A DNA stretch of 33,313 nt. Source: a virus. Below the pieces are notes generated by a model. That model saw only the letters and a list, made by a program, of their open reading frames with translations, made no database searches and was not told the DNA's origin. The DNA lies in the IMG/VR virus record IMGVR_UViG_3300032242_001765, positions 1 to 33,313 of that record. One strand, 5' to 3'. The position numbers and the translations under genes are program-made. Shown here piece after piece: positions 3,868 to 31,047 of this stretch (the stretch's first letter is position 1; each line of letters opens with the position of its first letter).

Positions 3868-5118
3868 ATGCGGGGCAAGAAAGCCCAAACCATGCCTGGG
3901 GTCGAGTATCATCGACCCGCACTCAAAGACTATCAGCTCGCCGCGCTATTCCACGACAAACGATATGCCTTCATCGAAGGCACAACAAAGGCCGGCAAGA
4001 CAATATCTGGCCTTTCCTGGCTTGTCGAAGAGGCCATAAACGGAACATGGACGAATTACTGGTGGGTCGCGCCGGTCTACTCTCAAGCCAAGATCGCCTA
4101 CGAGCGGGCCAAGCGAGCGATCCCAGAGCTAATCGTCAAGGCCAACGAAAGCGATCTCACAATTACTATTATCGGCGGACACGTTCTTTGGTTTAAGAGC
4201 GCCGAGAAGCCGGACAATCTGTTCGGTGAGGACGTCGGAGCGGCGCTACTCGATGAGTGCAGCCGTATGCGCGAGGAAGCCTGGTATGCGATACGAACGA
4301 CGCTCACGGCAACACGCGGAAAGATTCGCTGCATCGGAAACGTCAAGGGTCGTCAGAACTGGTTTTTCCGTCTTTGCCGGCGCGCGGAGTCAGGCGATCC
4401 GGATATGGTTTACGCGAAGATCACCGCGGCCGACGCGGTCAAGGCGGGAATCCTAACACAGGAAGAAATCGACGACGCGAAACGAATACTTCCCGAAGCT
4501 GTCTTCAACGAGCTTTACTATGCGATTCCGAACGAGGACGGCAGCAATCCATTCGGGATAAGTCATATCAAGGCTTGCGTCGCTCCGATATCAACATCTT
4601 CTCCCGTATGCTTTGGAATCGATCTTGCCAAGTCTATCGATTGGACCGTGATAGTCGGGCTCGACCACGCCGCTAACGTCTGTCTATTTGACCGCTGGCA
4701 AAGCCCCTGGCAAGAAACTATAAATCGCCTCGGTTCTTTGGCGAATGGGTATTCAGGACTTGTTGACAGCACCGGCGTCGGAGATCCAGTACTCGAGCAA
4801 CTCCAAAGAGCCGGCAAAGGATTTTATGAAGGCTATAAGTTTACTAGCGAGTCGAAACAGAAACTGATGGAAGGTTTAGCTATCGCAATTCAATCGAGAA
4901 AAATAAAGTTTCCCGACGGTCCAATTCGAATAGAGCTAGAAAATTTTGAATACGAATATACGCGGACAGGAGTTCGCTATACAGCGCCAGAGGGAATGCA
5001 CGACGACTGCGTCATGGCTATCGCTCTTGCCTGGCAATACCATTCCGTCAACTTCGGCGTTAACGCTTCTGCGCAATGGGAATCTTCCGACAAGCCTCCG
5101 ACTCCGGAATGGGAATAA
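3868..5118 (+). CDS. Terminase large subunit
   Basis: 416 aa. It couples ATP hydrolysis to DNA translocation into the prohead and cuts the concatemer. Walker A is EGTTKAGKT (residues 37-45) and Walker B is ALLDEC (near 124-129), with a coupling-type segment GNVKGRQNW further on. The C-terminal RNase H-like nuclease has the expected acidic residues: GIDLAKSIDW (near 250), DSTGVGDP (near 300) and HDDCVMA (near 379). The order and length match a standard TerL. No strong Shine-Dalgarno precedes ATG 3868; an in-frame ATG at 3892 would still leave the motor intact. Confidence 0.93.
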   Translation: MRGKKAQTMPGVEYHRPALKDYQLAALFHDKRYAFIEGTTKAGKTISGLSWLVEEAINGTWTNYWWVAPVYSQAKIAYERAKRAIPELIVKANESDLTITIIGGHVLWFKSAEKPDNLFGEDVGAALLDECSRMREEAWYAIRTTLTATRGKIRCIGNVKGRQNWFFRLCRRAESGDPDMVYAKITAADAVKAGILTQEEIDDAKRILPEAVFNELYYAIPNEDGSNPFGISHIKACVAPISTSSPVCFGIDLAKSIDWTVIVGLDHAANVCLFDRWQSPWQETINRLGSLANGYSGLVDSTGVGDPVLEQLQRAGKGFYEGYKFTSESKQKLMEGLAIAIQSRKIKFPDGPIRIELENFEYEYTRTGVRYTAPEGMHDDCVMAIALAWQYHSVNFGVNASAQWESSDKPPTPEWE

Positions 5119-5201: not shown

Positions 5202-5717
5202 ATGACCAAGCGCCTCATCGTAAAATTACTCGCCCTCACCGTTTTCGTTCTGTTCTCAGTTAAGGCTCAAGCGGCTACTCAGCCGGGAACCGTTCTTGCC
5301 GACCCGCTCGGTGTCGGTCCTTCAATCTTCGCTCAGAACCTGACGTATCAAGGCGTTCAGAAGTGCTTGATTGAAAGCTCGACCCCGACTTTAGTTGGAG
5401 TTCCTTGCGCTGTCGGAGCCGGAGTTGTTTACGGAATCAGCAACTCAAGCGGAGTCGCTGGAGATTTCGCAATTGCTTGGGACACGACCACGGCCGGTAT
5501 TCCCGCCGCGACTGGTGTTGGAATCGATAAAAACGGAATACGACTTAGCCCCAAGGTTTTCGCTGGAACGACCGTCACCGACTGTACCGATCCTGCTCTT
5601 TGCGGACAATGGCATCCCGTATTTGGTCCCGTTCGCTTCAATCTCGGATTGTCAGCGGTTCGATCCGGAACGAGCAACGCGATTATTTACTACCGCCTCG
5701 ATACGACTACTCCATAA
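5202..5717 (+). CDS. Exported protein with Sec signal peptide and four cysteines
   Basis: 171 aa from ATG 5202, chosen because CGGAGG lies 5-10 bases upstream; an in-frame ATG at 5169 would put 11 charged residues ahead of the signal. Residues 1-23 (MTKRLIVKLLALTVFVLFSV then KAQA) form a classic signal peptide with cleavage after A-Q-A. The mature part is small-residue rich and probably beta-structured, with four cysteines (QKC, VPC, TDC, ALC) suited to two disulfides. It lies between terminase and portal, where phages often place head or moron genes. It has its own promoter at 5131-5159. Function unknown; a virion or host-surface role is inference. Confidence 0.8.
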   Translation: MTKRLIVKLLALTVFVLFSVKAQAATQPGTVLADPLGVGPSIFAQNLTYQGVQKCLIESSTPTLVGVPCAVGAGVVYGISNSSGVAGDFAIAWDTTTAGIPAATGVGIDKNGIRLSPKVFAGTTVTDCTDPALCGQWHPVFGPVRFNLGLSAVRSGTSNAIIYYRLDTTTP

Positions 5718-5740: not shown

Positions 5741-6139
5741 ATGAGACGAAAGGCTTTCGACCTCGCGATGTTCTTTCTCGCCGCATTCTCTCTTGTCCTC
5801 GTTCTTTCTCCGGCAACGAGGGTTAGAGCGCAAGTAGCGTTTGGTCAGTTGTTGACAACCGGGCAAATGATAATTGGCAACACGGCCAACGGTCCTACGG
5901 CGACTCAGGTATTCGATGCGAACGGGAACAAAACTCTATTGCTCGGAGCTTTTACGTCCGGGCAGTTGACTACCCTTTCATCGCCGACTTCGGGCTACCT
6001 TGTGGTCAATATAACGACCGCCCAGCTCTGTATGTCAACTGGCACCGCCGCCAATACCTTAGGCGCCTGGGTCGTTCTTTCAACCGCCCCTGTATCAAGC
6101 CCGCTTGCCGCAAGCCAAGTGGCAAGCTGCCACTCGTAA
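5741..6139 (+). CDS. Exported protein with Sec signal peptide, two cysteines
   Basis: 132 aa from ATG 5741 with AAGAGGG upstream. The N-terminus MRRKAFDLAMFFLAAFSLVL followed by a short stretch to R-V-R-A is a signal peptide with cleavage before QVAFGQ. The mature part resembles phage surface or fibre building blocks (GYLVVNITTAQLCMSTG, then GAWVVL) and contains two cysteines. It is in the same transcription unit as the exported gene before it, 23 bp away. Not assigned to a named family. The two genes together look like a small secreted cassette inserted between terminase and portal. Confidence 0.75.
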   Translation: MRRKAFDLAMFFLAAFSLVLVLSPATRVRAQVAFGQLLTTGQMIIGNTANGPTATQVFDANGNKTLLLGAFTSGQLTTLSSPTSGYLVVNITTAQLCMSTGTAANTLGAWVVLSTAPVSSPLAASQVASCHS

Positions 6140-6293: not shown

Positions 6294-8075
6294 ATGCCGA
6301 GACGCAAGGGCAAAGCGGCTAGGCCCGGAGATTGGGATTCTGCCAAGATAATTCCTGGCAACAATCCAGCTTCGGCCCTGTTGTCTTTTACCCAAAGAGA
6401 CTACGAGCAGGAAATCTACAGCGATCTTGAAAACCCAAAGACCTCCGCTCTATCGGATGTCCTAACCTCAGTAAAAGACGGAAAATCAAAAATCGTAGAG
6501 GCCGCTGTATTCTGCGCCAGATTCCGCGGCGACGGGACGATGCTTCGAGAGTCTAAGGACGGATCGAAGCCATACAAGATCGTTGTAATGCGCGGGACGA
6601 GCATATCGAAAGAAGATCAGGAAAAACTTAAAGAGTCTCACGTTGAAATCGACGAGAGCTGGCCTTTTCAAAGCAGTAGCGACCTAGGATCAACCTTTAA
6701 CCTCGATCCGAATCAATATACAGAGTTCACGCCTTATTTCAACGGACCTTTCTCGAAGCAACAATATTTCGATTACTTCAAGGGACACGCTCGGGCCTTC
6801 CAAGAATACAACCACAACCCAGCGGCGAAACGAATCGTCGATATTTTCATTCAGTACGCCTTCGGGCGCGGTTTTAAGGTCCTTTGCCGAAATGATTCAT
6901 ACTCTGACAAATGGGACGACTTCAACCGAAACAACCGTATTACCCACAAAATGCGTAAGTATTGGATGCGCGAATATTTGGTTTACGGCGAGAACTTCAT
7001 CGATAAGATACGTTGGATAAGCGTAGACCCTTCGACGATTTACGATATTATTTGCGAGGGATACGACGAATATATCGACAACGTTCTATATTATTATCAG
7101 ATGTTTCAAACCGCCACGCAGATGTACTCTGGAATCGATGTTAAGGGAGTAGCCGGCTCCAAGGACTCTAAGATAGGTCATTATATCGTTCGACAAATCC
7201 CATACGATCAGATCATTCATATTAAGGCGAACGTCATGTCGATCGAGAAGCGCGGAAGATCTATCCTTTACCCTATCCTTGGATGGCTTAAACGATTGGT
7301 CGATACGCTTAACTCTCAGGTCTTAGGAGAGCAGTTAAGGGCTTCTTTTGTTTGGGACGACACGGTCAACGGATCTGCGGCGGATGTTGCGGCCCATGCT
7401 CAAAAGTTCAACTACATACCTGTCGCACCTTCAATTTTCGTTCACAACAAGGCGGTAGAGCGCAAACCTCTTGCCCCAATGTCCGGGGTATCTGTAGGGC
7501 AATCAAACGTCACACAAGAGATACTGGCGCTGATTGCGACCGCTGTAGGGCTTCCCAAGGAACATTTAAACGTAATGATGCAGGGAGGATCTAACCGGGC
7601 GACCGCTGTTGTAGGCTCGGAGCCGTTTACAAAGGTCATCGAGGACCTACAAGAGGACGGAAACGATCTTATACATCAGATTATTCAGGCATTCTGCGAA
7701 CAGAATCAAATCGATTACATCGAACAGGACTGGCAGATTATATTCCCTTCCGTTCAAAAGGACGCGATCAACGACCGATTGAAGGCGATCATGACTTGCG
7801 AAATGAGCGGATGGTTTAGCCATGAGCGCGCCGCGACCATGGCCGCTGCGGAAATGGAGGCCGACTCCTACGATTACGAACAGGAGATGAAAAAGTCTGA
7901 AGAATTTAAGCAGGATCAGATGATAAAGGGATTGCCGGGAAACCCGGCGCCAAATACCGGGAATCCCGGTAAAAACCAACAGCCAGACAATAAGGCCGAG
8001 AAGAAACCGTCTGATACTAACCCTATCCATGGGAAAGGCAAAGCCGACATCATCGCACAGCACAAAAAACTATAG
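6294..8075 (+). CDS. Portal protein
   Basis: 593 aa. Portal rings form the DNA entry vertex and the docking point for terminase and the tail connectors. Family-like features include the stem and clip region with YLVYGENFIDKIRW (near residue 226), I-H-I-K-A-N-V followed by GRSILYPILGWLKRLVDTLN (near residues 320-340), and the later V-G-L-P-K-E-H-L segment with QGGSNRATAV. The C-terminus is charged and disordered (GNPAPNTGNPGKNQQPDNKA), as in many portals. Position after terminase and before a gp7-like head protein supports the call. The start at ATG 6294 has no clear Shine-Dalgarno, so translation may be coupled to the 45-aa gene. Confidence 0.88.
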   Translation: MPRRKGKAARPGDWDSAKIIPGNNPASALLSFTQRDYEQEIYSDLENPKTSALSDVLTSVKDGKSKIVEAAVFCARFRGDGTMLRESKDGSKPYKIVVMRGTSISKEDQEKLKESHVEIDESWPFQSSSDLGSTFNLDPNQYTEFTPYFNGPFSKQQYFDYFKGHARAFQEYNHNPAAKRIVDIFIQYAFGRGFKVLCRNDSYSDKWDDFNRNNRITHKMRKYWMREYLVYGENFIDKIRWISVDPSTIYDIICEGYDEYIDNVLYYYQMFQTATQMYSGIDVKGVAGSKDSKIGHYIVRQIPYDQIIHIKANVMSIEKRGRSILYPILGWLKRLVDTLNSQVLGEQLRASFVWDDTVNGSAADVAAHAQKFNYIPVAPSIFVHNKAVERKPLAPMSGVSVGQSNVTQEILALIATAVGLPKEHLNVMMQGGSNRATAVVGSEPFTKVIEDLQEDGNDLIHQIIQAFCEQNQIDYIEQDWQIIFPSVQKDAINDRLKAIMTCEMSGWFSHERAATMAAAEMEADSYDYEQEMKKSEEFKQDQMIKGLPGNPAPNTGNPGKNQQPDNKAEKKPSDTNPIHGKGKADIIAQHKKL

Positions 8076-12010: not shown

Positions 12011-13243
12011 ATGAAAGAAAAACTAAAAGAGACGGCGGGCGGAAGGAACGCTCAACGCCTGAGAGAATCAAATTCCTCCAAATGGGATAAGATGCAAAAT
12101 CAGCTCGTGGAGGCGATGCGTCGACAGGTCAAGAATTACACCGGCCTCGACATCGCCGAGAGCGAGACGGCCGAGAGGATCGACTTCTCGGACCCGAGCT
12201 TCTCGATCAAGGCTTTCCGAGAGGCGACCTATGAGTATTGCCGAAGGAGCGCGCGCGAGGCTTCTGCCGAGGGCGTTCTTCAGCAACTTCTGAGGGCCGG
12301 CGTTCAATTGTCGGTCAACAAGGAGTATCAGGCGGTCGATACGAATTTCGAAGAGATCGTCAACGTAATTCCTTCGACGAAGGCAATCGAGCTTTATGCT
12401 CCTCTCTATCGCGCCGGCTTCATGGGGCCTGTCGAAGAGGGAGACGAGCCGGGTCGTGTCAACGCCGCGGGCGCTGATATCCAAATCCGAAACAAGAAGA
12501 AAGCAGTTATCTTCGAAGTTACGGAAGAAATGTGGGAAGATGACCAGACCTCACAGATTCAGGAACAGGCGAGCCAGATCGGAGAAAACGGAAAGATCCT
12601 TAAGGATTCCTATTGCTTCGTTCGTTGGCTAGGCGCGGCTGGAACGGATGCCGGTGGTAATGCGATTCCTAAGTCTCAAACCGGTACGCAAGCCGGGGAA
12701 TCGACTTGGCCGTTTAACACTTCGTTTACGAACGGAGGCGGTCAAAACCGCCTTACTTCGTTTGCGGCATTCTCTCAGCAGGCGCTTATTCAGCTTCGGC
12801 TCTTGGGCCGTAAGATGAAGGACCCGCGCGGAAACAAGATGCTCGTCGCGTTCGACACGCTTGTTTGCGGAGCGGCAATTCAAGATGCGGCTGAAGAGCT
12901 GTTGACTTCTCAAAATTACGCATCGACTAGCTCGATCAAGGGAGTTCCCGCTGGCGCTGTCGGAACTGATACCGGGGTCGGTACTACGTTCGCGAGAAAT
13001 ATTCTTCAGGGAAAATATAATCTGGTTCCGTCGATCTGGCTTCCTGATACGTGCTACGGCTTAATGCAAGCCGGTAAGGGTCTGCGCCTTCAACAGCGTC
13101 GGCCGCTTCGCGTCATCATGGAAAACCCGTTGAGCGGACCGGCGTTTACCGCCTCGGTATTCCGCTACAAGATTGACGAGCGTTACGAGGTTGACTGGAC
13201 CGAGCCTAGGTTCGCTGGCTTGGGTTCTGACGGAACGGTCTAA
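12011..13243 (+). CDS. Major capsid protein (HK97 fold, inferred)
   Basis: 410 aa. It has a helical N-terminal arm (about residues 1-75, LVEAMRRQVKNYTGLDIAES), an E-V-T-E-E-M-W-E-D-D segment typical of the spine-helix region of HK97-type capsid proteins, and a beta-rich C-terminal domain (VPSIWLPDTCYGLMQAGKG, then YEVDWTEPRFAG). Position after protease-scaffold and decoration genes supports it. AGGAGG and AAGGAAAA precede the ATG. It should form the icosahedral shell as hexamers and pentamers. A perfect hairpin follows 12 bases after its stop. Confidence 0.85.
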   Translation: MKEKLKETAGGRNAQRLRESNSSKWDKMQNQLVEAMRRQVKNYTGLDIAESETAERIDFSDPSFSIKAFREATYEYCRRSAREASAEGVLQQLLRAGVQLSVNKEYQAVDTNFEEIVNVIPSTKAIELYAPLYRAGFMGPVEEGDEPGRVNAAGADIQIRNKKKAVIFEVTEEMWEDDQTSQIQEQASQIGENGKILKDSYCFVRWLGAAGTDAGGNAIPKSQTGTQAGESTWPFNTSFTNGGGQNRLTSFAAFSQQALIQLRLLGRKMKDPRGNKMLVAFDTLVCGAAIQDAAEELLTSQNYASTSSIKGVPAGAVGTDTGVGTTFARNILQGKYNLVPSIWLPDTCYGLMQAGKGLRLQQRRPLRVIMENPLSGPAFTASVFRYKIDERYEVDWTEPRFAGLGSDGTV

Positions 13244-19822: not shown

Positions 19823-20455
19823 ATGGCATGGTTATCGTCTTTTCTCTTGGGTCGTCCTGGCTACGAAAATTCATTCGACGTAAACCCAAACAAGGTAATG
19901 ATAGACGAATCTCAGATTGTTGCTACAAACCGAGTCTTGAGCGGCCACGCCCGCAAGTGGGTTTTTCGGACCAATTTTCCGACGATATCACTCGATTCGA
20001 GCTTCTTTACAGAGGCGCAGAAGGATATCATGGCGTCCCTGTTGACCGTGACCGATACTTTCCTTTCATTCCAAGTCAGGGACGACCTAAAGATTTGGGG
20101 AGAAGCAAATATCCCTACCTCGACGTCAACGGTTTTGCTTCAAGAAAACAGCGCAACGCTTCTATCGACAGCACTTGTCGCGGCCGGATTCTCAAGCATA
20201 ATTACAGTTACGGGAGTTTATACTACCCCGCCAGTCAACGGAGTAAATTCTGGATCAAACTACTATTCGGGTGGATCGTATTCGGACGCAACTCGAACGG
20301 TCACTTTAGGCAGCGTTCTACCGGGAACATCGCAAGTCTATTGCAACTACACCTATAAGGGATGGCTCGTAAACATGGAAAAAATAAATCATACCGCGAC
20401 AGGCGGCAACGTCGATACGCTTTCATTTAGTGGTTGGACATTGGAGGGCGTATAA
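19823..20455 (+). CDS. Probable distal tail protein
   Basis: 210 aa, beta-rich. It follows the tape measure directly, where distal tail or tail-tip adaptor genes lie. It contains short conserved-looking pieces (HARKWVFRTNFPTISLDSSF, then MASLLTVTDTFLSFQVRDD) and a C-terminal MEKINHTATGGNVDTLSF segment. No signal peptide, in contrast to the next five genes. It likely forms the ring that ends the tube and carries the fibre complex. The family call is by position and general form. Confidence 0.5.
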   Translation: MAWLSSFLLGRPGYENSFDVNPNKVMIDESQIVATNRVLSGHARKWVFRTNFPTISLDSSFFTEAQKDIMASLLTVTDTFLSFQVRDDLKIWGEANIPTSTSTVLLQENSATLLSTALVAAGFSSIITVTGVYTTPPVNGVNSGSNYYSGGSYSDATRTVTLGSVLPGTSQVYCNYTYKGWLVNMEKINHTATGGNVDTLSFSGWTLEGV

Positions 20456-22362
20456 TGCGCCGACTTATCCCGTTCTTGATTGCTTTTATAGCCGGCGTAG
20501 CTAATGCAGATACGACAACAAATCGGCTAAGTCTTACGGTGCCGAGTATTGGTTCTACTGGTTGGGGGCCTAAGATCAATAACGACCTATTTGCGATCGA
20601 TACATTCACGGCAACGCAACAGGGACCAAACACTTTTTCATCATCAAATACGTTCAATGCTCCGGTTAAAATTTCAACCGATATGACTATGGCATACTCA
20701 GGACCTATGCACTTTTCCGCCCCTGTATCATCCGTCAATGCTTACGTCGGACTGCTTCAAGTCGATACGACGGGGGATTTAAGCATAGTCAATAACGCTT
20801 CTTATACCGCCTCGACCAATAAATGGAACCGAATTGACGTTAATCAGCCGGTCTGGATGCAGACATACAATACCTATGGAGCTATCCCAGGGGAGGGAGG
20901 ACTTCAAGGCTGGACTCTTTGGCGCGTTCAAAAGGGAGCAAACCCTATAGGTTCAAACTACGGCTCTGTCGGAAGCCCAGAGCTTGCGATAACATCGACC
21001 TATAACCGAGATATGGTCGTCGGTGGTCAGAATATAGAACTAGACGGCTCAGGACTCAACCCGCCTGGCTTTGGAAGGTTTATCAACTCGAATGCGGCCG
21101 GTCCTATTTATACCGGTATGACTAGGAACTACTTCGGAAACTTAAATTCTAGCGATTCTAATACTAACGACGATTGGGCGGTTGTTTTTACGAGCGCAAC
21201 GAACTACAGTGCTTTAAATATTTTCCACTCTAGCCCTACCGCTGGAGCGGTCAGACAGACGTTTGCGTCTTGGGATTCAACTGGAACGTATGAAGCAGAT
21301 CTTCGAGCGGCGCCAACTCTTCCTGGGGCGATGATTCTTAAATCAAGCGGAACTGTAAACCCAGTTCTTTCTATAACCCCATACGGAAATACTGGCGTCA
21401 GTGACACAAATGCGTCTGGTATTTACATGGACGCAACCAATAACCTTGGCGATATAGCAATGAACATTTATTCTAACGCCTTCTTCAACCAGGGTTTAGG
21501 TTCATTGTTAAGGGTCCATCAAGCAAACGGAAATTATAACCAACCGATGGTTATTTTCAGGGTCGATAGCAGCAGTTTTCCAGGCGCAAATCTACGCCTA
21601 GAAGGTGGCATTCCTAGTTTGTATTTCAGGAACACTGGTCCTTATTCTCAATACGTCCCTCCTGCTGGAGAGTTCCAGATATCAGACCTAAAAGATAGCC
21701 TGAGATTTGAAATGAGAAACCCTGGAAACACTTCCTTCGACTCGTTTATGGTTTCTAGTCGCAACTTTGTCAGCGACGGTGTTGTCGCCTTTGGAAGGAA
21801 CTACCCTACACCGAGAGCCCATGTCGAGGTTAACTGGCTGCCGCAAACGACTCCGACTAGCTTTGTAGTCGGTATTTCTTCCGTCCAGGTTGGTGACGTA
21901 TTATCAGTGCTAGGCAATGGAAGCGTCGGGGTTGGTAGACAGATACCTTTTACGACGAGTAATTTCGAGGTAGGTACGTCTAGCTTTATCGTTCAATTCG
22001 GTGGCAATGTCGGTGTTGGTGCTGTTCCTAGCAATCTATTCCAGGTCGGCGGTGGGACTATCGCCGTAACAAAGAGTGGTCATTTCACTACAGCGGGGAC
22101 AGCTCCAACCACGACGAGTTGCAACTCACAGTCGGCCAATGCAAATAGTAACGATATGCGTGGTTCAGTAACATTCGCGGGTGGAGCGCAAACAGCCTGT
22201 ACGTTTAACTTTATAAATAGCGGTGGTGTATCTACTCCGTTTTGCACCTGTTCAGATGTATCCAACCCAACGGCGGTTAAATGTTTGGCTGGATCAGGAA
22301 CTTTGACGGTTTCAATAACCGCCGCGGCAAACGACACGATCAGTTATCACTGTGACTGGTAA
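20455..22362 (+). CDS. Tail fibre-like protein with Sec signal peptide
   Basis: 635 aa from ATG 20455 (TAATG overlap). Residues 1-18 (RRLIPFLIAFIAGVANA) form a signal peptide, cleaved before DTTTN. The mature start has LSLTVPSIGSTGWGPKINND, a common phage fibre N-terminal motif. The body is a long beta-rich stalk; near residues 500-540 there are V-G-V-G and F-x-V-G-x-S-S-F repeats. All six cysteines are in the last 90 residues (TSC, TAC, FCTC, KC, HC), forming a disulfide-rich tip domain that also occurs in the protein at 24950-26101. A fibre carrying a signal peptide is unusual. The role is probably receptor binding or surface display. Confidence 0.75.
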   Translation: MRRLIPFLIAFIAGVANADTTTNRLSLTVPSIGSTGWGPKINNDLFAIDTFTATQQGPNTFSSSNTFNAPVKISTDMTMAYSGPMHFSAPVSSVNAYVGLLQVDTTGDLSIVNNASYTASTNKWNRIDVNQPVWMQTYNTYGAIPGEGGLQGWTLWRVQKGANPIGSNYGSVGSPELAITSTYNRDMVVGGQNIELDGSGLNPPGFGRFINSNAAGPIYTGMTRNYFGNLNSSDSNTNDDWAVVFTSATNYSALNIFHSSPTAGAVRQTFASWDSTGTYEADLRAAPTLPGAMILKSSGTVNPVLSITPYGNTGVSDTNASGIYMDATNNLGDIAMNIYSNAFFNQGLGSLLRVHQANGNYNQPMVIFRVDSSSFPGANLRLEGGIPSLYFRNTGPYSQYVPPAGEFQISDLKDSLRFEMRNPGNTSFDSFMVSSRNFVSDGVVAFGRNYPTPRAHVEVNWLPQTTPTSFVVGISSVQVGDVLSVLGNGSVGVGRQIPFTTSNFEVGTSSFIVQFGGNVGVGAVPSNLFQVGGGTIAVTKSGHFTTAGTAPTTTSCNSQSANANSNDMRGSVTFAGGAQTACTFNFINSGGVSTPFCTCSDVSNPTAVKCLAGSGTLTVSITAAANDTISYHCDW

Positions 22363-22377
22363 ATGGAGTCAATCGCT

Positions 22378-22788
22378 ATGCGTTTAAATTTATTCTTATT
22401 TATTCTAACGCTTTCGATTCCAGCAAACGCATTAAAAAGAAACGGTTTTTCTACTACTCCGACATCGCGCGAGGAGGGAGATACGACCATTCAGTTCTCA
22501 AGCGCTTGCCCTACCGGGTCTTGGATTCTTGTCGTATCTTCTGGCACTAGCCGAAGATCGGCCTATTTAGAGGCTTCTAATTTTAACGCCGGCACCGTTT
22601 GCCTATCGACCGCTCCGATCGGAACGACTTGCTCTTCAAGCACTCCGGGATCGGATCTTGCGGCCGGCCAGTCGATTACAGACTACGGTCACTCCGCTTG
22701 GTATTGCATGGGCGCTACGGCCGGGAACTTAGTAAAAGGCGCCGTATCCTGCGACGGCCTTGATCCTGGGGGCCTAACGTGCCAATAG
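22378..22788 (+). CDS. Exported cysteine-rich small protein
   Basis: 136 aa from ATG 22378, chosen over ATG 22363 because GGAG lies 9 bases upstream and the signal peptide then starts properly (MRLNLFLFILTLSIPANA, cleavage before LKRNG). The mature part has six cysteines, an even number suited to three disulfides, and is rich in Ser, Thr and Gly. Not recognised. It overlaps the next start by 10 bases, so it is translated with the fibre genes. It may be a fibre chaperone or an accessory surface protein, but nothing shows this directly. Confidence 0.7.
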   Translation: MRLNLFLFILTLSIPANALKRNGFSTTPTSREEGDTTIQFSSACPTGSWILVVSSGTSRRSAYLEASNFNAGTVCLSTAPIGTTCSSSTPGSDLAAGQSITDYGHSAWYCMGATAGNLVKGAVSCDGLDPGGLTCQ

Positions 22789-24950
22789 CGGCCCTGATCG
22801 CTCTCCTGGCCCTGCCGGCGCGCGCAATTGAGGGTCGCGGCGGGTCTGGCGCCGGTGGAAGCGGAACGTCTACAACCACTCTCGCCGGATATTTCTGGCC
22901 CCTCTCTGGAACGCAGATAGCGACAGGATCGTACAAGGTGAGCAATGCGTCGTTTACTTTGATTGGCGGCCCTATGTCTGACTTTGGAAATTATTTAGTT
23001 TGGATAGGTTCGGACTCGACAAAGACTAGCACTACGTCTGCGGGAGCGTATTTTGCCGTCGGTAAGGATGGATCGGTTGCTATTGGCGGGCGTGGGCGAG
23101 GGGATCAATACTACGGAAATATTTATAGAAGTGGAACCCAAAGTTTTACTTCTACATTTATGGCCCCAGTTAATCCGGCGGGGATAGCTGGTGGTGGCAA
23201 CGTATGTCTAGGAGTAAAAAGCTATTGTGGATCATTTGGCGTAACAATCGCGGGTGGTTCGTTAAATGCAATTGGAGATGATTTTAATGGTGGAACCTAT
23301 CAAACAATAGGAGGTGGATTAAATAACACAGCAGAAAATTCAAATGACGTTATTGCCGGAGGATATTTAAATAAAACTACAACGGATTCCGGCCCTGGCA
23401 ATCAGACAATCGGCGGCGGTATTCAGAACACCTTAGCCGCAAGTTATTCAGTTATAGGTGGTGGACAAGGAAACACAAACAACTCTGGCCTTGCGGGTGG
23501 ACCGTTTCCGTGGAGCGTTATTGGTGGTGGTTTTCAAAACACGATAGATGCGGCTGGATTGTTTCTTGGGCCTACTTCTGGCGTGATTGGGGGGGGCTAT
23601 CAAAATCATAACGATTCTAACTACGGATTTATCGGCGGTGGTTATCAAAATAGTTCAAGAGCAGACTACTCAACAATAGCGGGTGGTCAGAACAATGGCG
23701 TCGTCGGTGCAGATGGAACCATCGGTGGAGGCAACCTAAACTCTGCCGTAGACCCATACGACACCATCGCCGGAGGCCGTAGCAATTCATCCGTCCATAA
23801 CGGTGACTTTGGATCAGGCGGCTATTCTTTCATCGGTGGCGGGACCAAGAACGTCGTAAACGATCAGTATAACTTTGTCGGCGGCGGCAACAGCAACACG
23901 GCGGGAGAGGATTCACTATCTGGTAGAGGCCACGCGACTATCGCCGGAGGAAGCGCAAATAGCACAGCATACGGCTATGTGTTTATCGGTGGCGGGCAAT
24001 CTAATACGGTAAATAGTGGCTATGGAAACATCGGAGGTGGTAAGTCAAACTTAATCACTCCCGCTGGAAACATAGCGGGTGACTTGTACGGATCTATAAT
24101 CGGAGGTCAGCAGAACAGCGTCGGAAACTTTTACGGAGCAATCGGAGGTGGTCAATTAAACGTTGATTATGGTGACCGCAGCTTTATCGGTGGTGGACAG
24201 TCAAATTTCATTACGTTAGCGGCAAGCTCCGCGACGATTAGTGGTGGCTTCAAGAACATCAACGAATCCAACGGCTCGACGATTGGCGGCGGTGCGCTCA
24301 ACACGATTTCCACTGGAGCATGGTACGGCGTTATCGAAGGAGGATATAACAACAAGATTCTATCTACTGGCTCTGTCGTCGTCGGTGGAGTTAATAACCT
24401 AGCGGCTGGTCAATACTCACTTGCGGCGGGCAACTCGTCTAGCGCAACGGCTCCTGGTTCTTTTCTTTGGAATGACTCTCGCGGTATACCACTGATCGGC
24501 ACTGTCACGGATCAATTCTTAATCCAAGCGCAAGGCGGCTTCCAAGCAAACGTATCAAGCCTAACGATATACGGCACTACTGCGAGACTGTTCACTGTAG
24601 ACAATACTAGCGTATCTGTTGTCGGTAACTATTTCACAGTCGGAGGATCGACGTTTAACGTCCTTAACGGAGGAGTGGCCGTTGATACGGCGGCGGTATC
24701 AATAACGACTAACACAATGTTTGTCGTCGGTGCGTCTAGCTTCGGGGTGACAGTCGATGGCTTCATCCGGCTAGGCGTTACTACAGCGGCCAAACTAAAG
24801 ACGATTACCCCAAATACAGAGCATTACAATCCTAACGGCAATCCAGGTTGGGTTGACTGTATCATGGAATCTGCGTCATGGGATTTATACTGCGCTACAG
24901 CGACGGCAAAGGGGTCATTCCGTAACGCTAGGACAGGAACGGGACCGTGA
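22779..24950 (+). CDS. Exported IGGGxxN-repeat adhesin-like fibre
   Basis: 723 aa, GTG start. Residues 1-16 (MPIAALIALLALPARA) form a short signal peptide without basic residues before its hydrophobic core. From about residue 155 to 545 it carries some 23 imperfect repeats around I-G-G-G-x-x-N, 11-20 residues apart, the pattern of YadA-type or beta-roll adhesin heads, followed by GSFLWNDS, a piece I associate with such proteins. The C-terminal part has F-T-V-G-G-S-T-F-N-V like the preceding fibre and ends with a four-cysteine budget across the protein (NVC, SYC, VDC, LYC). It probably forms a trimeric glycine-rich roll for surface binding. Confidence 0.75.
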   Translation: MPIAALIALLALPARAIEGRGGSGAGGSGTSTTTLAGYFWPLSGTQIATGSYKVSNASFTLIGGPMSDFGNYLVWIGSDSTKTSTTSAGAYFAVGKDGSVAIGGRGRGDQYYGNIYRSGTQSFTSTFMAPVNPAGIAGGGNVCLGVKSYCGSFGVTIAGGSLNAIGDDFNGGTYQTIGGGLNNTAENSNDVIAGGYLNKTTTDSGPGNQTIGGGIQNTLAASYSVIGGGQGNTNNSGLAGGPFPWSVIGGGFQNTIDAAGLFLGPTSGVIGGGYQNHNDSNYGFIGGGYQNSSRADYSTIAGGQNNGVVGADGTIGGGNLNSAVDPYDTIAGGRSNSSVHNGDFGSGGYSFIGGGTKNVVNDQYNFVGGGNSNTAGEDSLSGRGHATIAGGSANSTAYGYVFIGGGQSNTVNSGYGNIGGGKSNLITPAGNIAGDLYGSIIGGQQNSVGNFYGAIGGGQLNVDYGDRSFIGGGQSNFITLAASSATISGGFKNINESNGSTIGGGALNTISTGAWYGVIEGGYNNKILSTGSVVVGGVNNLAAGQYSLAAGNSSSATAPGSFLWNDSRGIPLIGTVTDQFLIQAQGGFQANVSSLTIYGTTARLFTVDNTSVSVVGNYFTVGGSTFNVLNGGVAVDTAAVSITTNTMFVVGASSFGVTVDGFIRLGVTTAAKLKTITPNTEHYNPNGNPGWVDCIMESASWDLYCATATAKGSFRNARTGTGP
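23240..24420 (+). repeat. IGGGxxN coding repeats
   Basis: About 23 degenerate units with core ATC-GGN-GGN-GGN, then two variable codons and AAY, spaced 33-60 bases. Codon usage differs between units, so this is an old protein repeat and not recent DNA slippage. It is not a CRISPR array: units are coding, degenerate and irregularly spaced. Confidence 0.85.
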
Positions 24951-26101
24951 TGGCTCAATTATTGTTGATGTTGGCTTCAAACGTAAACGCCATAGGAATA
25001 CCTAATGGCAAGTTTCTTTTCAGGGATGCGGCGCAAAACTATTACTGCAAGATTGATAGCGGTGGTGTATTTGGTTGTACGAATCAGAATACAGCTTCTT
25101 TGGTTGGTTGCGGGACTTCGCCAGGCATAACGGGCAATAACATGGATTTCCAGATTTCCGATGGCACCAGTTACGGCGGTTCATGCCAGGTCACTCCGAC
25201 GAATAATTATGAATCTGCAAATGTGGTCTGCGTCGGTATAGAGACAAGCACAGGTTCATTAATTCTTGGCGTAATGAGTCAATCGGGTACAAGTAAACTT
25301 GTCGGTGGTTTCTCTAATAGTCTTATGAATATGAAGTGCGCCAACATCTTTACGTCTGATCCGCAAAAGATTGGCGGGTTTCAAATGCGAGATGTCGGCA
25401 ATGTCACTCGCGCCTGGGTTAGCACGACGACGATGTTAAATGTTGACGAAAATTTAGATGCTAGTGGGCCAAGCGTAAGTGGTTGCGGATCGGGTGCAAG
25501 CATTATCGGCTCCAACCGAGTAATGAGGTTATCAATGGGTTCTAGTGGATCAGCACAACCATGCTCTATTGTGTTCGCTTCCCCGAAATGGACTACCGCT
25601 CCGCTATGTATGATACGTGATGAAAGTAACGCAATAGTCAGCACTGGCCCCGCGACAACAACTGGGCTTGCAATATCAAATATACCGATCAAGGATACCG
25701 TCGATATCATTTGCGAAGATAATGGTTCTGCACCTGATGCGAATATATTCTCTGTTAAAGGTCCAGACAATGTGGACTATGCCTACCTAGACGCAGATTA
25801 CGTCTGGCACAATAGACCAACAGCATCGCCTACATTGACTGGCTGTGTCGCTGGCGGCGGTAGCCCTAGCGTATCTGGCACTGACGCTAGATTCTCGCTA
25901 AACGTAGCCAAAGGACCCCCCACCAGTTGCACGATTAGTTTTGGACATACATGGGATTTTAAACCTAACTGTTTGTGGCGTAATGAATTAACCCAAACAA
26001 CATCGTCTGGAACGTGGAATACAACGTCAATCACTTTGAGTAAATTCGGTGGAGCGGGTGATATCGTGGACGTATTCTGTGACCCGTACAATGAGCCATA
26101 G
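24950..26101 (+). CDS. Exported protein with repeated disulfide-rich domains
   Basis: 383 aa from ATG 24950 (TGATG); GTG 24947 adds one residue. The start MAQLLLMLASNVNA is a short signal peptide, cleaved before IGIPNG. The mature part has 14 cysteines in three blocks. Two are clear copies of one module (SGCGSGASIIG...PCSIVF...PLCMI...IICED near residues 175-260, and TGCVAGGG...SCTISF...NCLW...VFCD at the end), and the same module forms the C-terminus of the fibre at 20455-22362. This is a known kind of phage fibre tip domain in my memory, here duplicated. A receptor-binding role is likely but not shown. Confidence 0.7.
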   Translation: MAQLLLMLASNVNAIGIPNGKFLFRDAAQNYYCKIDSGGVFGCTNQNTASLVGCGTSPGITGNNMDFQISDGTSYGGSCQVTPTNNYESANVVCVGIETSTGSLILGVMSQSGTSKLVGGFSNSLMNMKCANIFTSDPQKIGGFQMRDVGNVTRAWVSTTTMLNVDENLDASGPSVSGCGSGASIIGSNRVMRLSMGSSGSAQPCSIVFASPKWTTAPLCMIRDESNAIVSTGPATTTGLAISNIPIKDTVDIICEDNGSAPDANIFSVKGPDNVDYAYLDADYVWHNRPTASPTLTGCVAGGGSPSVSGTDARFSLNVAKGPPTSCTISFGHTWDFKPNCLWRNELTQTTSSGTWNTTSITLSKFGGAGDIVDVFCDPYNEP

Positions 26102-26110
26102 GAGATGAAA

Positions 26111-26662
26111 ATGAAAAAACTAGCATTCGCAATAATCGCGGCTATTGCTATCCCAACGACCGCGATCGCATCGCCTTACTTTCGGATCATAGGACCTGGA
26201 AATTATCATATTCTCGACGGTGCATTGTTTAGCACTAAGAGCCTGGCGCGAACTCAAAACACTACGGTCGGGGCTCTTTTTACGCACTCAACCGCAGACG
26301 GGTCTATCCTACCGCAAAGCTGGGTTGACGCGGGATATGCCGAGGCTTGGGTGCCGTTGGCGATCGGAGGGAGCTTTGGGGGAACTCGTTCTACCGTAAA
26401 TCTAGGGCCTATTCTAGACGTTGGCCCTCAGTTACAGCATGGACTTCTCGGTCTTTTAAATTGGGTGGCCCCTAACAATTTGACTAGCCTTAAAAGCCAT
26501 CTACTACCGCCGACGCCTTCATCAAACTTCGACATTACTTTTTCGATGGGTGTTATGCTCAATGCTGATGTCGTTATCGATGGGCGGTCGGTTAAGACAT
26601 TCAAAGAAGCCTTCTCTGATCCGGCGCGCTATTTTGTAGGTCCTGGACTGCACTTTAAATAA
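26111..26662 (+). CDS. Exported protein, no cysteines
   Basis: 183 aa from ATG 26111, preferred over ATG 26105 because GGAG at 26101-26104 then has a 6-base spacing. MKKLAFAIIAAIAIPTTAIA is a strong signal peptide ending A-I-A before SPYFRI. The mature part lacks cysteine and reads as a compact protein (LDGALFSTKSLARTQNTTVG, then LGPILDVGPQLQHGLLGLLN). Not recognised. It closes the run of five exported genes and precedes the lysis cassette. Confidence 0.7.
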   Translation: MKKLAFAIIAAIAIPTTAIASPYFRIIGPGNYHILDGALFSTKSLARTQNTTVGALFTHSTADGSILPQSWVDAGYAEAWVPLAIGGSFGGTRSTVNLGPILDVGPQLQHGLLGLLNWVAPNNLTSLKSHLLPPTPSSNFDITFSMGVMLNADVVIDGRSVKTFKEAFSDPARYFVGPGLHFK

Positions 26663-26663
26663 A

Positions 26664-27038
26664 ATGATGACCCCAGAAGATTTAGCGGCTTACGGAGCCA
26701 TTGCCATAACGGTATTGGGTGCGATTAGCGGAGGCTTGACGTTTTACGTTAGATCGATTGTCGCAGAGAAGGAGTCGATGATCGATACTCTTAGCACACG
26801 AGTCGCTCAAATTGCTCAAGAATACGATAGGCGTTTATCTGATCTTGATAAAGATCATAAAATCACGGTCGAAAGGATGCGACAAATTGAGAAAGAAGCC
26901 CTTACTCGTTCCGACCGACAGGAAATGCTTGGAGCGATTAAAGACGTTGGCGACAGACTAAGCAAACAAATTCAAGATTTAAGCGGCGACGTTACTCATT
27001 TAGTCGATCGCGTTTCAAGAGTCGAGGCGAACAATTGA
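26664..27038 (+). CDS. Membrane-anchored coiled-coil protein (lysis-associated?)
   Basis: 124 aa. One transmembrane helix at residues 9-30 (YGAIAITVLGAISGGLTFYV) is followed by a long charged helix to the end (VAQIAQEYDRRLSDLDKDHK). An N-terminal anchor plus a periplasmic coiled coil is the form of inner-membrane spanins and of some holin partners. It is followed by a terminator and then the putative endolysin. ATG 26664 or 26667 may be used; no clear Shine-Dalgarno. Confidence 0.5.
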   Translation: MMTPEDLAAYGAIAITVLGAISGGLTFYVRSIVAEKESMIDTLSTRVAQIAQEYDRRLSDLDKDHKITVERMRQIEKEALTRSDRQEMLGAIKDVGDRLSKQIQDLSGDVTHLVDRVSRVEANN

Positions 27039-27043
27039 ACTAC

Positions 27044-27069
27044 GAGCGCGCCGGCGCTCTCTGTTTTTT
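27044..27069 (+). terminator. Intrinsic terminator
   Basis: GAGCGC (27044-27049), loop GCCG, GCGCTC (27054-27059), then TCTG and six T (27064-27069). Stem is short but GC-rich. It lies between the membrane protein and the endolysin, so lysis genes may be expressed by readthrough or from a downstream start that I could not identify. Confidence 0.7.
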
Positions 27070-27105
27070 CCTTATGATATTTTTTATTTGGAGGGCGTTT
27101 AATCG

Positions 27106-27642
27106 ATGATTGACCCAGGAGATGCGTTAAAAAATCTTTGCGACCGTCTTGTATCTACTTCTAACCTTTGGCCGGAGTACGATTCAAGCGGGAAACTTCT
27201 CACGACCTACTGCAATATGGCGGCTCGGATAGCCGCGCAAGCATTGGGTTGTTCTGAATTTGACGATCCGAACCTAATCGCCGACGATATGGTCGCCATC
27301 ATGAAAGCCAACAAATCCGGGCGTTGGGAAAGCGTTACTGGTCAACAGGCTACGCTTCACGCACTAGACGGTGGCCTAGCCTTCGCCGCGGCTGATTCTA
27401 AGGCCCTTTTAGAGGCCCACGGCCATATTACCCTTATTCGGCCAGAATCGATGCAACCTAGCCCATCCTGGGGCAAAGATTGCCCAATGGTGGTAAACGT
27501 AGGCAAGGGAGATCCCGGCCAAGACTTGAGGCCGATAGATCATCATCCCTTGCAGTATCAGACGAAGCCAAATTGGAACTGCAAGGTTAGTCAGGCTTTC
27601 CCTGTTTCTAAAGGTGAGCCTGGTTATTTCTGTTTCAAATAG
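27106..27642 (+). CDS. Putative endolysin, NlpC/P60- or CHAP-like
   Basis: 178 aa with GGAGGG upstream. The layout fits papain-like peptidoglycan hydrolases: a possible catalytic cysteine in T-Y-C-N-M-A-A (near residue 36), a helical stretch, then A-L-L-E-A-H-G-H-I-T-L-I (near residue 107) with the candidate histidine. It is between the coiled-coil membrane protein and a holin-like gene. No signal peptide is present, so export would need a holin. The family assignment is from motif shape; other folds are possible. Confidence 0.6.
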   Translation: MIDPGDALKNLCDRLVSTSNLWPEYDSSGKLLTTYCNMAARIAAQALGCSEFDDPNLIADDMVAIMKANKSGRWESVTGQQATLHALDGGLAFAAADSKALLEAHGHITLIRPESMQPSPSWGKDCPMVVNVGKGDPGQDLRPIDHHPLQYQTKPNWNCKVSQAFPVSKGEPGYFCFK

Positions 27643-27651
27643 GAGGGTAAA

Positions 27652-27948
27652 ATGGACTTCATAACAAACACGATCGCAAGCGTAACCGGGATCTGGAAAA
27701 AGATCGCTTCCGTTCTTCCGCTCATCGCCGGAGCGGGTGGCGTTCTAGTCGGATCGGGAAGCATTCTTATTCAGATAAGCCATTCTGGATCTGCCTCCGC
27801 GGCCCTGCATATAATCCAAAGTCTTAATCAAAATGACCCTAACGTTATGATGATTGCCGGAGGACTTCTTGCTCTCGGAATACATACAAATCATCAAGAA
27901 AACAAGGCATCGATCGCAGACCAAAAGGACGCCCCAAAGGATTCTTAA
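27652..27948 (+). CDS. Putative holin
   Basis: 98 aa with AGGAGGG upstream of ATG 27652. Two hydrophobic segments are visible: about residues 20-42 (VLPLIAGAGGVLVGSGSILI) and 66-78 (MMIAGGLLALGI), with a charged C-terminal tail (NKASIADQKDAPKDS). Two-span small proteins beside an endolysin gene are usually holins, which permeabilise the inner membrane at lysis. Nothing else identifies it. Confidence 0.6.
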   Translation: MDFITNTIASVTGIWKKIASVLPLIAGAGGVLVGSGSILIQISHSGSASAALHIIQSLNQNDPNVMMIAGGLLALGIHTNHQENKASIADQKDAPKDS

Positions 27949-27960
27949 AGACGCCGGCCG

Positions 27961-30900
27961 ATGATAACCGTCACCTCAGAATACAACGCGGCGCAATATG
28001 CCGACGTGGCGCAGTATATTTCGCAAGTTTTTCTCGTCTTGGGGAACTACGCCGCTTCAAAGAACGGTTCTACTGTTGCTAGTTCAGGCGATGACGCCAG
28101 CGGAAACTTCCCTGCGCTTGGGGCTATCGACTCTGACCGAACCGAAATCAATATAGGCGCCGCAAGTGGGGCTGATAACGGAGTCGGAAAGTCATCTTGG
28201 AAATCTTCTCTCGTCCCTGACGGAAGCGGTAACGTTTACCTAGAGATCGACTTTAACGCGACCAGGATATTCAATCGCGTAAAGCTCTACAACCTTGCTT
28301 CCGATCCTCTGACGTCATACCTAATTCAGTATTGGGACGGATCGGTATGGCAGAACTTCGCGGGAAGCCCAGATAGGTATACTCCAGCCGGCTCTAGCGG
28401 TTACGGTAGCGGCGGCTATGGCTCCGGTCCTTACGGGGGCAGCGGATCTTGGCCTGGGTTGGGATATACCGGAAATCTTGACGTATACGACTTCTCGGAT
28501 ATAACTTCAACGAAGATTAAAATTATTGTCTACTCGACGACAAACGCCGACGCCGCGCAAATTGTAGAGGTCGAGGTCTACCGAAAGATCGATATTACTA
28601 GCCGACTCCTTGGATTTAAAATCGATAGAAAGCCCGATCTCAAGCTCTACAATCCAATGGCAACTCAGGCGGATATTGAGTGCGACAATACGGATCAATT
28701 TTTCTCTATATCGTATACGCCTACGGCGGCCCAGGTTACGGCCGGATTTGTAAATTCCGAACTCGCTCAACTTGCATTTGACGTTGAAATAAACGAGGGA
28801 TTTGTCACAAGTCTAGGAACCGAGACGATAAGAACATTCACCGGTAGCGCCGACTCGATTACTATAAACGCTCGTCCTGGGACCGTAGATATTTCCGCGC
28901 GCGATTATATGAAGCACCTCATTAACCAGGTCGATTCTTCCGGACTAAAGACGGCAATAGATATAAAGGATGCCGTAAAATATGTCCTTAATAGAAACAA
29001 CGTATCAACCTATGAAATGCTATTGCGTATTACCGGGATTAATGAGGATTATTTCTTTACGTTCGAGTCGTCGATATTAACATCGATTCAACAGCTCGTT
29101 CAGGCGGCCGGAGACGCGGCGTTTTTCTACGACGAAAATGGTTACGCGAATTTTCAATTCTACCTTAACAATCAAGTCGGAACATACATGGTTCAGACTC
29201 AGGGTGATTGGCAAACCGGATCCCTAACCAATATCGACACGATCTCAACGACCGCCACGATTCGAAGGGAGTGGTTCTTAATCGACGATTTCTTCGACGG
29301 AGACTATACTTCAAATCCAGTCTGGACAGCCACTGGGGCAGGAGCCTTTACCGTCTCAGTGGCGTCTGGATTCCTTCCGACGGGAAATAGCTTAAACCTA
29401 ACATGCAACGGAAACAGCTCCGCCACTTTCGCACAGGTCCAATTGTCATCATCGGTATTCTCTCAATTTTACGGAACCTTTGCCTGCAAGGGGATACCGT
29501 TTCAAAGTATCGGTGGGGGGATGGGTGCTAATAATCACGTTTTTACTTACTGGTGGTTTAACTACAACTACGGCCTCCGCATCGGAAACTATACGGATGG
29601 GGTTTCAAATTATTACTCTTTGTATTTGGTCAAAAATCCGGCGAGCATCACCGTAGTTAACGGCAGCGACGCTGGGATTTTAACCTCGACCGCAGGCGCT
29701 CAAATGGACATTCGAGTGACCGTAATCGCCGGATCTGGGACCACAAATTTTAAGCTCTATATTAACAATGTTTTGACGATCGATTTCGGTTCAGACTCTG
29801 ATTTTATGGCTGGCGCAGGGATGATGATCCAGGTTACGGGAATTTCAGGATCGGGTTCTTGGGAGTCCGACTTCTACGTTAAGGATATTTATTGGTCGCA
29901 GGAGATCGACACAACCTCCGCCACTACGAACGCTCAAGCGACCTGGATTTCACCATCGATAGATCAAAGCATAACGGTACAGTCGGAAGGAGCGATAACA
30001 TCAAACGTAACCGCTCCGCCTGGCACGACGGTCACATTTTATACGCGAACCAGCCCCGACAATGTTGCCTGGACAGCTTGGGCCGCCATCGACGGAATGG
30101 GAAATATTCTTTCAACTCCGCAAAGGTATTTGCAAGTAAGAATAATTATCGCAGACCCTATTGATAGCGCCGGAAATAACGCTAATACGATCGGCGCCTA
30201 CGCGACCAGTTTCTCTCTGCAATGGCTTTTTGGAAGCGGCCAGAATAAATGGACGACAGGAATCAACTTCTATCTTGCATACAACTCAGAAATCGTCGAT
30301 CTTCAACAACAGCTATCAGACAACCTTGGCGGAGATACGGCGATCATAAACGACATTACGGTGACATCGAGCCCTACTATATTAGGAGGGACTAGTTCAG
30401 ATACGACTTGGCAGGGAACGGCGGGAACGCCGGCCGCGGCGATATCGGGATCAAACGTCTTGTCAGTCATTAACGGAACTCAGACTTTCAATATTGTAGT
30501 CGATGGAGGTATGGACACGACCAATATGGGGGCGGTCAATAGCGGCGCAGGCGGCGGGTCTATTGCCTTAACGTTCTCCGGAGGGGCGGTAGGTTCCGCT
30601 CAAATTACATACGTTCATCCTACACGACCGATTTTAACTCTCACTATTACAAACCCAGGAAATATAACAGATCTTCGTTTGATCGGGAAAACATTCCAAA
30701 ACGCGCAGACCCCATATACTTCAAACCCAACGGACGGGCTATCTATCGCTAGGCATCGCCGGCGCGCAAGCACGATCAACAATAATTATATTGTCAGCAA
30801 CGCGATCGCCGTCATCATCGCAAATAAGATCATTAGCAACTTCAAAAACCCGACCCTTTGGATTCCCAAGCTCGATATTATCCCGAAGATCAATATGCAG

Positions 30901-31047
30901 ATAGGCGATCAAGTAAACGTCACCGAGCTTATCAGCGGCGTCGCGGCGAACTACTACGTCGTTGGACATAACCGATCTATTCGCGTCTCGAAAGGTAAGG
31001 CCCAAGCGTCAATGCAAGTCGCCTTAATCTCGATCCCGACCTCCTAA
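27961..31047 (+). CDS. Large tail-tip / central tail protein with carbohydrate-binding-like modules
   Basis: 1028 aa. Residues about 25-145 resemble an F5/8 type C (discoidin) domain (SSWKSSLV, then VYLEIDFNATRIFNRVKLYN). A glycine/tyrosine loop follows (YGSGGYGSGPYGGSG). Residues 210-400 look like a tail-hub core (DITSRLLGFKIDRKPDLKLY, then VDISARDYMKHLINQV). Residues about 442-643 resemble a LamG-like module (DFFDGDYTSNPVW to VKDIYWSQ). The end returns to a hub-like fold (NFKNPTLWIPKLDIIPK). It follows the lysis genes rather than the tape measure, which is unusual, and likely binds cell-surface sugars. Domain names are by resemblance. Confidence 0.65.
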   Translation: MITVTSEYNAAQYADVAQYISQVFLVLGNYAASKNGSTVASSGDDASGNFPALGAIDSDRTEINIGAASGADNGVGKSSWKSSLVPDGSGNVYLEIDFNATRIFNRVKLYNLASDPLTSYLIQYWDGSVWQNFAGSPDRYTPAGSSGYGSGGYGSGPYGGSGSWPGLGYTGNLDVYDFSDITSTKIKIIVYSTTNADAAQIVEVEVYRKIDITSRLLGFKIDRKPDLKLYNPMATQADIECDNTDQFFSISYTPTAAQVTAGFVNSELAQLAFDVEINEGFVTSLGTETIRTFTGSADSITINARPGTVDISARDYMKHLINQVDSSGLKTAIDIKDAVKYVLNRNNVSTYEMLLRITGINEDYFFTFESSILTSIQQLVQAAGDAAFFYDENGYANFQFYLNNQVGTYMVQTQGDWQTGSLTNIDTISTTATIRREWFLIDDFFDGDYTSNPVWTATGAGAFTVSVASGFLPTGNSLNLTCNGNSSATFAQVQLSSSVFSQFYGTFACKGIPFQSIGGGMGANNHVFTYWWFNYNYGLRIGNYTDGVSNYYSLYLVKNPASITVVNGSDAGILTSTAGAQMDIRVTVIAGSGTTNFKLYINNVLTIDFGSDSDFMAGAGMMIQVTGISGSGSWESDFYVKDIYWSQEIDTTSATTNAQATWISPSIDQSITVQSEGAITSNVTAPPGTTVTFYTRTSPDNVAWTAWAAIDGMGNILSTPQRYLQVRIIIADPIDSAGNNANTIGAYATSFSLQWLFGSGQNKWTTGINFYLAYNSEIVDLQQQLSDNLGGDTAIINDITVTSSPTILGGTSSDTTWQGTAGTPAAAISGSNVLSVINGTQTFNIVVDGGMDTTNMGAVNSGAGGGSIALTFSGGAVGSAQITYVHPTRPILTLTITNPGNITDLRLIGKTFQNAQTPYTSNPTDGLSIARHRRRASTINNNYIVSNAIAVIIANKIISNFKNPTLWIPKLDIIPKINMQIGDQVNVTELISGVAANYYVVGHNRSIRVSKGKAQASMQVALISIPTS

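Follow-up and report, generated by a model that had tools for sequence, protein, structure and literature searches.

The window is the whole 33,313-base IMG/VR record (linear class), which is a contig from an unclassified siphophage. Its main features are given below. Genes are referred to by their start positions, and cysteine counts for proteins with signal peptides are for the mature proteins. The signal score is a heuristic for Sec/SPase I signals, based on the charge of the n-region, the hydrophobic core, and the −3/−1 rule.

3868..5118, plus strand: terminase large subunit (family context)
5202..5717, plus strand: signal-peptide protein between the terminase and the portal, 171 aa, 4 cysteines, score 8.4
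5741..6139, plus strand: second signal-peptide protein between the terminase and the portal, 132 aa, 2 cysteines, score 7.2
6294..8075, plus strand: portal protein, the source of one of the two profiles that brought in the family
12011..13243, plus strand: major capsid protein, the source of the other profile
19823..20455, plus strand: signal-less conserved tail protein, immediately before the fibre cluster, 1 cysteine
20455..22362, plus strand: signal-peptide tail fibre, 635 aa, 6 cysteines, score 8.5, with a forced start
20455..20508, plus strand: segment encoding the fibre's signal peptide, with cleavage predicted between ANA and D
22378..22788, plus strand: signal-peptide protein in the fibre cluster, 136 aa, 6 cysteines, score 8.0, with the signal MRLNLFLFILTLSIPANA ending before L
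22779..24950, plus strand: fibre- or adhesin-like protein, 723 aa, 4 cysteines, with a marginal signal (GTG start, no basic n-region)
24950..26101, plus strand: three tandem 4-Cys beta domains plus two cysteines (14 cysteines), with a weak signal (no basic n-region)
26111..26662, plus strand: predicted exported protein, 0 cysteines, score 8.8, adjoining the putative lysis genes
26664..27948, plus strand: putative lysis genes, identified by sequence character, with no clear family match
27961..31047, plus strand: tail-tip protein without a signal, 3 cysteines

We consider the window to be a siphophage-type genome because its structural genes match PHROGs families (terminase, portal, head morphogenesis, major capsid, minor tail protein, and tape measure). 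As in other Caudoviricetes of the siphophage type, the terminase large subunit, portal, major capsid, and tape measure occur in order, and there is synteny in the relatives. Among the 50,697 phage records in INPHARED, we found no relatives of the capsid or the portal. Only distant terminases matched: the window's terminase is about 30% identical to those from phages of Acidobacteria and Thermus. Profiles for the portal and the capsid brought in about 30 related contigs from IMG/VR, and the portals of G001, G003, G004, and G006 are about 45–57% identical to the window's portal. We also searched genome contigs for a host, using the portal profile and the CSDC C-terminal motif, and found no confirmed relative.

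Some features of these genomes lie outside of our main topic. In the window, a DNA methyltransferase (2302-3518) is split over two frames near 2950-3090, and G001 has a single 403-aa gene; the split could reflect either a real frameshift in the phage genome or a mistake in the assembly. Also in the window, the presumed protein of the protease/scaffold region (9990-11462) has a long acidic EDGEDGE repeat. G006 has a probable intein with an HNH endonuclease inside its portal gene (L018:5037-7727) and a second probable intein in the head-morphogenesis gene beside it (L018:8741-10864); the Pfam matches are to Intein_splicing/HNH_3 and Hint.

Seven proteins in the window had been proposed, from the sequence alone, to carry N-terminal signal peptides with A-x-A cleavage sites. 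All seven reading frames are present. The signals of 5202, 5741, 20455, 22378, and 26111 are strong, with high scores, a basic n-region, a hydrophobic core, and small residues at −3 and −1. The signals of 22779 (score 5.1) and 24950 (score 3.8) are marginal, because neither protein has a lysine or arginine ahead of its hydrophobic core, and in both genes an in-frame stop lies so close that there is no better start upstream. The A-x-A site is strict in five of the seven, but 5741 and 24950 have V-x-A instead. As a control, we scored phages that carry the ordinary fibre anchor (n = 4), using one fixed start rule: just 2 of their 208 ORFs were above the threshold, and neither of these was the fibre gene. 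In the family, the ORFs above the threshold are almost all within the head-tail gene block. Given the control phages and the conservation of the signals across the family, we reject chance hydrophobic N-termini.

More broadly, genes for proteins with signal peptides recur at three sites in divergent members of the family: between the terminase and the portal, directly after the capsid gene, and around the tail tip. The terminase-portal site is occupied in the window (two genes), G001, L002, G003, G004 (two genes), G006, L014, and L015; we saw no signal genes at this site in G005, G007, or L016. The homologues of 5202, with signals and at the same site, are in L014 and L015 (an AlphaFold model of 5202, run with two homologues, had a pLDDT of just 40, and we claim no fold for it), and 5741 is syntenic with genes of G001, L002, G003, G004, and G006. 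By eye only, 5741 has a fibre-like GQ(M/I)(I/L)IG motif and resembles G001 14301 and the L002 protein. Several of the terminase-portal signal proteins (G001 14301, L002 746, G003 17028, G004 8273 and 8893, and G006 3770) share a conserved C-S-(D/N)-C ... TGT-type end. The terminase-portal protein of G006 also has a block of 37 amino acids in common with the tail fibre of the same genome (73% identical).

Most of the signal proteins encoded directly after the capsid gene belong to one family of 450–570 amino acids. Its members are in G005 (at 583), G007 (26170), L132 (7584), L133 (8770), L134 (where the gene ends early, at the end of the contig), L135 (11239), L136, L138 (11231), and L139 (11174). 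L137 and L149 have other signal proteins at this site. The post-capsid family is possibly an exported head decoration. The L132 protein has a weak match to an F5/8-type C domain at its C-terminus. As a separate matter, homology of the G005 and G007 proteins to the signal-less proteins 13311 and 13714 was not supported (hhalign probability below 1%).

At the tail-tip site, signal genes are found in G001, G003, G004, G006, L132, L133, L137, L139, L149, and the window. The arrangement varies. In the relatives, the homologue of 19823 is directly followed by the tail-tip gene, and the signal-peptide fibre gene comes next; the window instead has its fibre cluster and the putative lysis genes ahead of the tail-tip gene. 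The window's tail-tip protein has a weak match to a galactose-binding domain. In G005, the tail-tip match (~G005:C1:26109-27299, minus strand) includes one in-frame TAG, which is possibly a frame change or stop readthrough.

The fibre 20455 is the most informative of these proteins. It consists of the signal MRRLIPFLIAFIAGVANA (residues 1-18), a canonical fibre anchor (DTTTNRLSLTVPSIGSTGWGPKINNDLFAID), a variable shaft, and, at the C-terminus, a 4-Cys domain plus two additional cysteines. Its first ~95 amino acids, including the signal, are homologous to the fibres of G003 (45%), G006 (47%), G004 (40%), and G001 (33%). The predicted mature N-terminus, which follows ANA and reads DTTTNRL...WGPKIN, aligns residue for residue with the anchor of ordinary cytoplasmic tail fibres, and ordinary phage fibres align from their residue two exactly at the predicted cleavage point. 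For example, gp19 of the Sinorhizobium phage phiM5 (MW202879) has the ordinary anchor and, according to its annotation, was detected in the proteome of the particle. So 20455 has the DTTT...WGxKIN anchor of the ordinary class, but its translation does not start directly before the anchor.

To compare the two kinds of fibres, we considered ordinary anchors from IMG/VR, namely the best 80 of at least 565 relatives, picked for similarity to the ordinary sequence: in 80/80, an ATG lies directly before the anchor, and 0/80 have a signal peptide. When we ran an anchor profile over all of the family's contigs, we found 10 anchors, all of which are preceded by a signal peptide (10/10), so no signal-less anchor was found in these contigs. 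(The anchors of L137 and L149 were found by the profile even though they were not used in building it.) The family's anchor genes have a Shine-Dalgarno sequence at the start of the signal, most have in-frame stops a few codons upstream, and none has a start codon at the ordinary anchor site; on these grounds, we reject an error in the start codon. By the criteria of the sequence-only reading, homologues that lack the signals or start further downstream would have counted against the claim; they do not lose the signals, and their starts are not further downstream.

Because the predicted cleavage site coincides with the ordinary N-terminus, and given the absence of signals from the 80 ordinary anchors and their presence in all 10 of the family's anchors, a signal peptide seems to have been added to a normal fibre. 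The simplest history would be that an ordinary fibre gained a signal peptide and that selection then kept it across divergent members. As judged from sequence, the signal peptides, their conservation, the coincidence of the predicted cleavage site with the ordinary N-terminus, and the lack of signal-less anchors in the family are well established. The proposal that there are Sec-exported proteins of the fibre type, which is unusual, is strongly supported by signals that are kept in divergent homologues, by forced starts, and by predicted cleavage at the ordinary start. Across the family, the fibres have a conserved anchor and variable C-termini, which is typical of receptor-binding fibres.

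The cysteines give a less regular picture than had been claimed. The mature counts for the seven proteins (4, 2, 6, 6, 4, 14, and 0, in gene order) are exact, as are the odd counts for the signal-less neighbors 19823 and 27961. Within the window, all six of the nonzero counts are even (p = 0.016), but in the relatives, just 24 of the 33 signal proteins with nonzero counts have an even number, as compared to 42 of 105 non-signal proteins (the proteins are not independent). Odd counts of 1, 3, 5, and 7 occur in the relatives' signal proteins, so an even number of cysteines is a tendency and not a strict rule. A repeated domain with four cysteines seems more telling than parity, and it supports disulfides in 24950 and 20455. 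The spacing of this domain is C-x25-C-x14-C-x35-C (approximately 25/14/35), with three copies in 24950 and one at the end of 20455, alongside which there is another pair of cysteines. AlphaFold modeled the domain as an all-beta structure, a beta sandwich (mean pLDDT 78), and Foldseek did not find any significant match to its fold.

The sequence-only reading had described the genes from 20455 to 26662 as five consecutive fibre genes. Four of these are fibre-like. We found no homologues of 22378. Most of 22779 is made up of IGGG..N repeats, and it matches the head of UspA1 (3pr7, E = 3e-7, phmmer). A Pfam scan of the protein gave no match, including to a YadA-type C-terminal membrane anchor, and its C-terminus is a short tail that contains cysteine. 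We set the fifth gene, 26111, apart from the fibre genes because the protein has no cysteines and because it is beside the putative lysis genes, which are 26664 (membrane/coiled-coil), 27106 (endolysin-like), and 27652 (membrane/holin-like). It is related to G004 29676, a homologue with a signal. We assign this gene, with its predicted exported product, to the putative lysis region. It probably does not encode a fibre, and the best reading is an envelope or lysis protein, a class in which signal peptides are nothing unusual.

How might an exported fibre be used? We give about an even chance to the explanation that the fibres are exported by Sec, mature in the envelope, and join the virions at lysis. 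The tail fibres, which are probably receptor-binding proteins, would be made as Sec preproteins, with a signal peptide ahead of an ordinary anchor. After export, signal peptidase I would cut the preprotein and thereby recreate the ordinary N-terminus. The fibre would form trimers and disulfides outside the cytoplasm, and tail assembly would go ahead inside it with no fibre present. Once the endolysin and holin break the cell, the anchor would attach the fibre to the virion. As many as six other exported proteins, mostly beta-rich, would come from the terminase-portal, post-capsid, and tail-tip sites, and in the intact cell these may have an additional role in coating the envelope or blocking receptors. 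The actual export, the cleavage, the pairing of the disulfides, and the attachment to the virion at lysis are steps that we infer, and the periplasm as the location is an assumption. To our knowledge, there is no case of an exported fibre finding the tail of a tailed phage after lysis, which counts against this route. A broader claim is that, in a whole family of tailed phages, maturation outside the cytoplasm applies to the receptor-binding fibres along with several more surface proteins, and that virions are completed only at or after lysis. We put the chance of this slightly below even.

The strongest alternative is that the exported proteins remain on the infected cell as adhesins, decoys, or superinfection blockers, along the lines of lambda Lom or T5 Llp, and are not parts of the virion, with the anchor as a remnant or an aid to trimerisation. 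Phage-encoded envelope proteins are well known to carry signal peptides, and lambda Lom, which has a signal, is encoded among the tail genes (PMC12309495). The repeats of 22779 resemble the heads of trimeric autotransporters, and 26111 resembles an envelope or lysis protein. On the other hand, ten divergent members keep a tail anchor directly at the predicted mature N-terminus, which would make little sense if there were no tail to bind and favors a role in the virion over a purely envelope role. Also, the variable C-termini are as expected for receptor-binding fibres, and we recognised neither a membrane anchor nor a translocator domain in any mature protein. We consider this alternative to be somewhat unlikely. 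Still, the tail-tip protein 27961 could be the main receptor binder, and the exported fibres could have another role. If the tail-tip protein also binds the host, then a decoy or superinfection-blocking role may apply, either alone or in addition.

In a dual use, envelope receptors would be blocked or coated by the fibre while infection is under way, and at lysis the virions would be armed from that same pool. This would explain why both the anchor and the signal were retained, but the envelope role is hypothetical, and we think that a dual use is distinctly unlikely. It is quite improbable that the N-terminal segments are uncleaved hydrophobic tails, rather than true signals, that tether the proteins to the membrane or the virion. 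Cleavage is predicted, and 22779 and 24950 lack basic n-regions, but the predicted cleavage sites are exactly at the ordinary fibre N-terminus, and the strong cases have typical n-, h-, and c-regions. Finally, although the starts were initially picked by eye, the evidence from start codons, Shine-Dalgarno sequences, and upstream stops, along with the conservation across the family, leaves almost no room for wrong starts or chance, with the proteins being ordinary cytoplasmic fibres whose true starts are downstream.

On the current understanding, the assembly of tailed phages takes place entirely in the cytoplasm. If the fibres do go through Sec, then tailed virions could use disulfide-bonded adhesive proteins, the particles would be unarmed until lysis, and the cell envelope may be a target of phage fibres while infection is under way. 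In the open-access PMC literature that we searched, we found no precedent for a signal peptide on a tail-fibre anchor, and split-compartment assembly of tailed phages is undescribed there.

The closest known systems are the ordinary cytoplasmic fibres (phiM5 gp19 in MW202879 and many IMG/VR contigs), which share the anchor DTTT..L..P..GS..WG.KIN.D...I, followed by a variable shaft and tip. They differ in what precedes the anchor: ATG in 80/80 (the best 80 of at least 565) versus a Sec signal in 10/10 of the family. The same anchor domain with or without a signal peptide is a clean natural comparison and is directly testable. Lambda Lom, T5 Llp, and Cor are signal-bearing envelope proteins and, like the family's, are encoded among tail genes, but they are outer-membrane proteins or lipoproteins without a tail anchor; of the window's proteins, only 26111 could be of this kind. 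Trimeric autotransporter adhesins (of the UspA1 and YadA type) are exported by Sec and have head repeats like those of 22779, but the C-terminus of 22779 shows no recognisable autotransporter membrane anchor. Filamentous phages have virion proteins with cleaved signal peptides (pIII and pVIII), but their virions assemble at the membrane, while the window's phage, with its terminase, portal, capsid, and tape measure, is expected to assemble in the cytoplasm. Overall, the known part of this system appears to be the tail fibre, and the unusual part would be the route by which it matures.
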